Positions 2,830 to 19,323 of a DNA stretch of 32,547 nt are shown here, one piece after another. The DNA lies in contig JAGTVA010000027.1 in assembly GCA_018224445.1 (NCBI GenBank), forward strand, positions 1 through 32,547, read 5' to 3'. Position numbers and translations under genes: made by a program. Under the pieces are notes generated by a model. It searched no databases and was not told the DNA's origin. It was given only the letters and a program-made list of their open reading frames with translations. This stretch comes from Saprospiraceae bacterium. Lineage in GTDB: Bacteria > Bacteroidota > Bacteroidia > Chitinophagales > Saprospiraceae. Numbering within the stretch: position 1 is the first letter of the stretch; each line of letters opens with the position of its first letter.

Positions 2830-2904
2830 CCCGGATTATTCATAGAAAGCTTCTATTACAAGACTACATGCCTTTCACGACGAAACCCTTATGAATAATC
2901 CGGG
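2830..2904. repeat. 75-bp element with perfect 14-bp terminal inverted repeats (MITE/REPIN-like)
   Basis: CCCGGATTATTCAT at 2830-2843 is repeated as its exact reverse complement ATGAATAATCCGGG at 2891-2904, with 47 bases between. The next inner pair (A2844/T2890) also matches. Flanks are TAGTTG on the left and TAGCTG on the right, a possible six-base target duplication with one mismatch. There is no ORF inside. No other copy occurs in this window. It may be a non-autonomous mobile element or an IS-end remnant. A transcript could also fold into a long hairpin in front of the 2980 gene. Confidence 0.6.
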
Positions 2905-9170: not shown

Positions 9171-9206
9171 AAAAAAGGGAAAACCTGTGCAGACTTTCCC
9201 TTTTTT
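9171..9206 (-). terminator. Intrinsic terminator downstream of secDF
   Basis: AAAAAAGGGAAA (9171-9182) pairs with TTTCCCTTTTTT (9195-9206) around a 12-base loop. On the minus strand this gives a GGGAAA/TTTCCC stem followed by six T, 28 bases past the secDF stop. The symmetry would allow function in both directions, but only secDF points into it. Confidence 0.75.
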
Positions 9207-19258: not shown

Positions 19259-19323
19259 AATCTTCACTTTTAATTAAACTCTAGTGTCAAGTCAAGAAAG
19301 AAAAAACAATAAAACAATCCAGG

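Follow-up and report, generated by a model that had tools for sequence, protein, structure and literature searches.

A 75-bp inverted-repeat element in a Saprospiraceae genome is a shortened copy of a small non-autonomous transposon family with IS1380-type ends

A perfect inverted repeat lies between two divergent genes in the window (the whole 32,547-nucleotide stretch of Saprospiraceae DNA that was analysed), which raises the question of whether it is a mobile element or a regulatory hairpin of one of its neighbours. On one side is a PLP enzyme gene (PF00291, minus strand, 1695-2783), past whose start the element sits; on the other is a large secreted adhesin-like gene, which runs from 2980 on the plus strand and encodes SprB repeats, MAM and fn3 domains and a Por-secretion tail. 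The first-pass annotation, which likewise placed the element between a PLP enzyme and an adhesin-like gene, had described perfect 14-bp terminal inverted repeats. A direct reading of the window shows that the arms are one base pair longer than claimed, at 15 bp, in the arrangement CCCGGATTATTCATA-(45 nt)-TATGAATAATCCGGG (Table 1). No other inverted repeat in the window has arms of 14 bp or more separated by up to 100 bp, and none was obtained in 30 windows simulated with a first-order Markov model, in agreement with the earlier view that a chance origin is unlikely.

Table 1. Parts of the element between the PLP enzyme and adhesin-like genes
Feature	Position	Strand	Basis
Short internal-deletion MITE copy, 75 bp	2830..2904	+	Own-genome repeat family; alignment with 176-bp, 73-bp and 59-bp members
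Left terminal inverted repeat CCCGGATTATTCATA	2830..2844	+	Initial 13 bases are those of IS1380-family ends in G537/G613
Right terminal inverted repeat TATGAATAATCCGGG	2890..2904	+	Terminal 13 bases are those of IS1380-family ends
Left subterminal arm, common to 176-bp members	2845..2872	+	Ends at GCCTT deletion joint, ~2871-2876
Right subterminal arm (TTTCACGACGAAACCCT), common to 176-bp members	2873..2889	+	Repeat search and alignment

The genome that carries the window is a 2.49-Mb draft in 208 contigs and is 85.6% complete; its genes and the structure of the repeat family suggest a Saprospiraceae-type Bacteroidota. Searching it with the 14-base end of the element (ATGAATAATCCGGG) gave 75 occurrences, 36 of them exact and 39 with one mismatch; the reversed pattern, used as a control, occurred once at up to one mismatch. 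Elements with the same two ends are found at about 30 loci, the many dispersed copies expected of a MITE. An 83-base query gave a close sibling 73 bp long (88%), and many copies matched the left 45 and right 36 bases with about 100 or more extra bases in between. The copies that we extracted show that the usual family member is 176 bp long with a 16-bp inverted repeat (CCCGGATTATTCATGA...TCATGAATAATCCGGG). Like the 15-bp repeat on the 75-bp window copy, this is a terminal inverted repeat on an element with no transposase gene.

In the alignment, about 100 internal bases of the 176-bp members are missing from the window copy and from its 73-bp sibling, and the deletion joint lies within a GCCTT sequence found on either side of the gap. 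The perfect fifteenth base pair of the window copy arises from two differences from the family, an additional A on the left side and a C-to-T substitution on the right side. Forms of 59 bp and 40 bp with different deletion joints also occur, and lengths within the family range from 40 to 500 bp. The shortest copy seen (C20, L025:1493-1532) has little beyond its two ends in 40 bp, with TTAA at either flank.

Insertion of a transposon is expected to duplicate its target, and we compared the flanks of 39 distinct spans with paired ends, taken from the own genome, from its sister species and from a single Acidobacteria contig; some few of these spans lie inside one another. The flanking tetramers are identical at all four positions in 12 spans and at three positions in a further 13, in comparison with 10% full matches when left and right flanks are paired at random. 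Eleven of the 12 perfect tetramers are TTAA, TTAG, CTAA or CTAG and the remaining one is TTTA. The insertion sites of the family are tetranucleotides of the YTAR (TTAA-like) type, whose duplication can be seen on many copies. The window copy is a counterpoint to this, as the tetramers that abut it (GTTG and TAGC) agree at none of the four positions. The near-duplicated TAGTTG and TAGCTG that the first-pass annotation took as a sign of a mobile element are present as described, but they are 6 bp long and imperfect whereas the family duplicates 4 bp, and they were ruled out as a target duplication. The left flank has a TTAG at 2823-2826 with three additional bases after it, which might be the remnant of a duplication that has decayed. 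The flanks at 2823-2829 and 2905-2911 also add seven stem pairs (three of them wobble) to give a stem of 22 pairs; members of the family usually have the 4-bp YTAR duplication only.

Within the same taxonomic family, IS1380-family elements with matching termini occur in a different genus, as four copies in genome G537 and one in G613. They are about 1,640 bp long with the inverted repeat CCCGGATTATTCACGG, and all five have perfect TTAA or TTAG duplications. The element at L146 encodes a transposase of 435 aa, and the G613 copy carries a stop codon. The terminal 13 bases of the MITE are identical to theirs at both ends, 13 of 13, and inward of these there is no convincing match. In the sister species G006 there is a broken IS1380 element (PF13701, E 4.9e-71), which is bounded by CCCGCATTATTCACCA and TCATGAATTTTTCGGG, similar to the MITE ends, and flanked by TTAA and TTAG. 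No IS1380 transposase gene was detected in the 85.6%-complete draft of the own genome. Judged on sequence likeness, IS1380 is well supported as the transposase type of the family; the known IS1380 elements share no more than their terminal 13 bases with the MITE, which is too little to mark any of them as its direct parent.

That short stretch of identity, and the absence of a parent element from the search of the own genome, would also fit a MITE that depends on a different family of DDE transposases and has an end sequence and target that merely resemble those of IS1380. Against this, all 13 bases agree at both ends, the IS1380 copies have the same TTAA/TTAG target, and the relic in the same genus has similar ends and flanks, so we consider this reading highly unlikely. 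A REPIN, in which paired REP sequences are spread by a RAYT (Y1) transposase, was also proposed in the first-pass annotation, and it would be an intergenic, hairpin-forming short repeat in many copies, as is seen here. This proposal did not hold. A search for the Y1 transposase (PF01797) gave no match in the own genome and was positive in five control genomes; moreover, the copies have inverted repeats of the DDE type in common with IS1380 elements, their target duplications are 4 bp long, and full-length forms of 176 bp do not favour a REPIN. Its probability is close to negligible. Taken together, the copy number, inverted repeats, target duplications on many copies and IS1380-type ends bear out the earlier MITE or IS-end reading: the 75-base element is a shortened copy of a small non-autonomous transposon family with ends of the IS1380 type.

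The 91-nt region around the element has a strong predicted RNA fold (-33.2 kcal/mol, z -7.7), and its 22-pair stem is placed between two divergent genes. This could suggest a conserved regulatory hairpin (a terminator, attenuator or operator) of the PLP enzyme or adhesin gene. However, the fold is strong because an inverted repeat is present, and any long inverted repeat is expected to fold well. A promoter and terminator scan gave no terminator-like site and promoter-like sites at chance level, and Rfam gave no match to the element, a tRNA being the sole match in the window. In the sister species G005 the order DUF4835, formyltransferase, PLP enzyme and divergent adhesin is kept, and in the locus fetched from G006 the PLP enzyme gene is likewise paired with a divergent adhesin gene (identities in sister species, 41% for the PLP enzyme and 47-50% for the adhesin). 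The element is absent from the orthologous PLP/adhesin intergenic region of both, so a conserved hairpin specific to this locus was rejected. This is presence/absence variation between species, as in a MITE, rather than a base-exact empty site. A single copy conserved at one place across species would have favoured regulation; what we found was about 30 copies at unrelated sites and two sister-species loci without one. Copy number and absence from these loci largely rule out the conserved hairpin, to which we give a very slim probability. The window copy is most likely a neutral insertion between the PLP enzyme and SprB-type adhesin genes, with a putative cis effect on either promoter being possible.

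Relatives of the 176-bp form are present in five of the seven sister species sampled, and among 53 further genomes outside the genus there was one 30-base match only. Among 399 genomes sampled from the order, three have the exact 16-base end and each of them belongs to the own genus. On this sampling the MITE family is restricted to the genus. G006 has a second subfamily of 175 bp, which has the ends in common and CTAA/CTAG duplications. A paired-end scan of genome contigs gave one contig from another phylum, that of Acidobacteria AH-259-O06, with a 61-bp element (L060:7441-7501) whose 15-base ends are the same as here and whose ACGA-AACC arm is similar. No recognisable matching ends were found within the fetched flanks of the IS1380 loci of that genome. 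The exact paired-end pattern gave no match in viral contigs, in a scan with a gap range of 10-40 that leaves 75-bp copies with their 45-nt centre outside it.

These data suggest that the element is very probably a MITE, a non-autonomous DNA transposon mobilised in trans by an IS1380-family (DDE_Tnp_1_4) transposase acting on CCCGGATTATTCA ends. Such a transposase would act on the MITE ends now or would have done so formerly, with insertion predicted at YTAR tetranucleotides and their duplication. The window copy may have arisen by loss of about 100 internal bases across the GCCTT repeat. It is taken to be immobile now, given that the search of the draft gave no IS1380 transposase and that its own target duplication is unrecognisable. 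The probable sequence of events would be mobilisation in trans at YTAR in the past, followed by internal deletion and decay. A wider reading is that IS1380-type MITEs have been amplified in the genus (several subfamilies, with nested copies and variants of 40 to ~500 bp) by a transposase since lost from the own genome, and that those lying between divergent genes, among them the present copy upstream of the adhesin gene, now serve through co-option as promoter-proximal hairpins; this we think unlikely.

Many copies of the first family contain a second MITE-like element of about 165-200 bp with the ends GTGTCAAGTCA ... TGACTTGACAC. Its place of insertion within the first family is constant, after GGCCTCTA or similar, and it is found in the own genome at L050 (C114), L026 (C13), L021 (C48), L013 (C97), L005 (C127), L012 (C128), L023 (C153) and L027 (C207). 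In the window, CTCTAGTGTCAAGTCAAG at 19280-19296, between two genes and with no partner end nearby, is an exact match to its end. An 11-mer of that end with one mismatch allowed matched in 38 of 100 shuffles, and the site is possibly a truncated copy or due to chance. Elsewhere in the window, a perfect inverted repeat of at least 12 bp at 9171-9206 (AAAAAAAGGGAAA...TTTCCCTTTTTT) lies between two minus-strand genes and looks like an ordinary bidirectional terminator.

The family seems to be undescribed, and the open literature that was searched held no IS1380-type MITE in Bacteroidota; the kind of element is ordinary, as is the biology otherwise. An isolated hairpin is here resolved into a defined MITE family with a transposase type (IS1380) and a target (YTAR), which aids annotation, and IS1380 elements with a piggyBac-type TTAA target are documented in five of five copies. 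The MITE resembles the IS1380-family insertion sequences (NF033539/PF13701 transposase) of G537 and G613 in its first 13 terminal bases and its TTAA/TTAG 4-bp duplication, but it has no transposase gene, is 40-500 bp rather than about 1,640 bp long and has unrelated subterminal sequence. Bacterial MITEs already described include MITEPye1, which is tied to the IS1182 family (PMC11578231), and BrickBuilt of Porphyromonas gingivalis (PMC4596501). Both are likewise small, multi-copy, mostly intergenic and foldable, with inverted repeats, some direct repeats and no transposase. They differ in having the ends of other IS families and other targets, and BrickBuilt also has an internal minisatellite. 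The piggyBac literature treats IS1380 as a distant relative, among prokaryotes, of piggyBac, whose own duplication is TTAA (PMC10140906). piggyBac and its non-autonomous derivatives share with the MITE the TTAA duplication and short inverted repeats that often begin with CCC, and the piggyBac transposase is distantly related to that of IS1380 (PMC10140906). In contrast with the MITE, piggyBac is eukaryotic; the MITE has a looser target, YTAR, and a piggyBac transposase plays no part in it. By analogy, the likeness would be one of mechanism only and not of membership.
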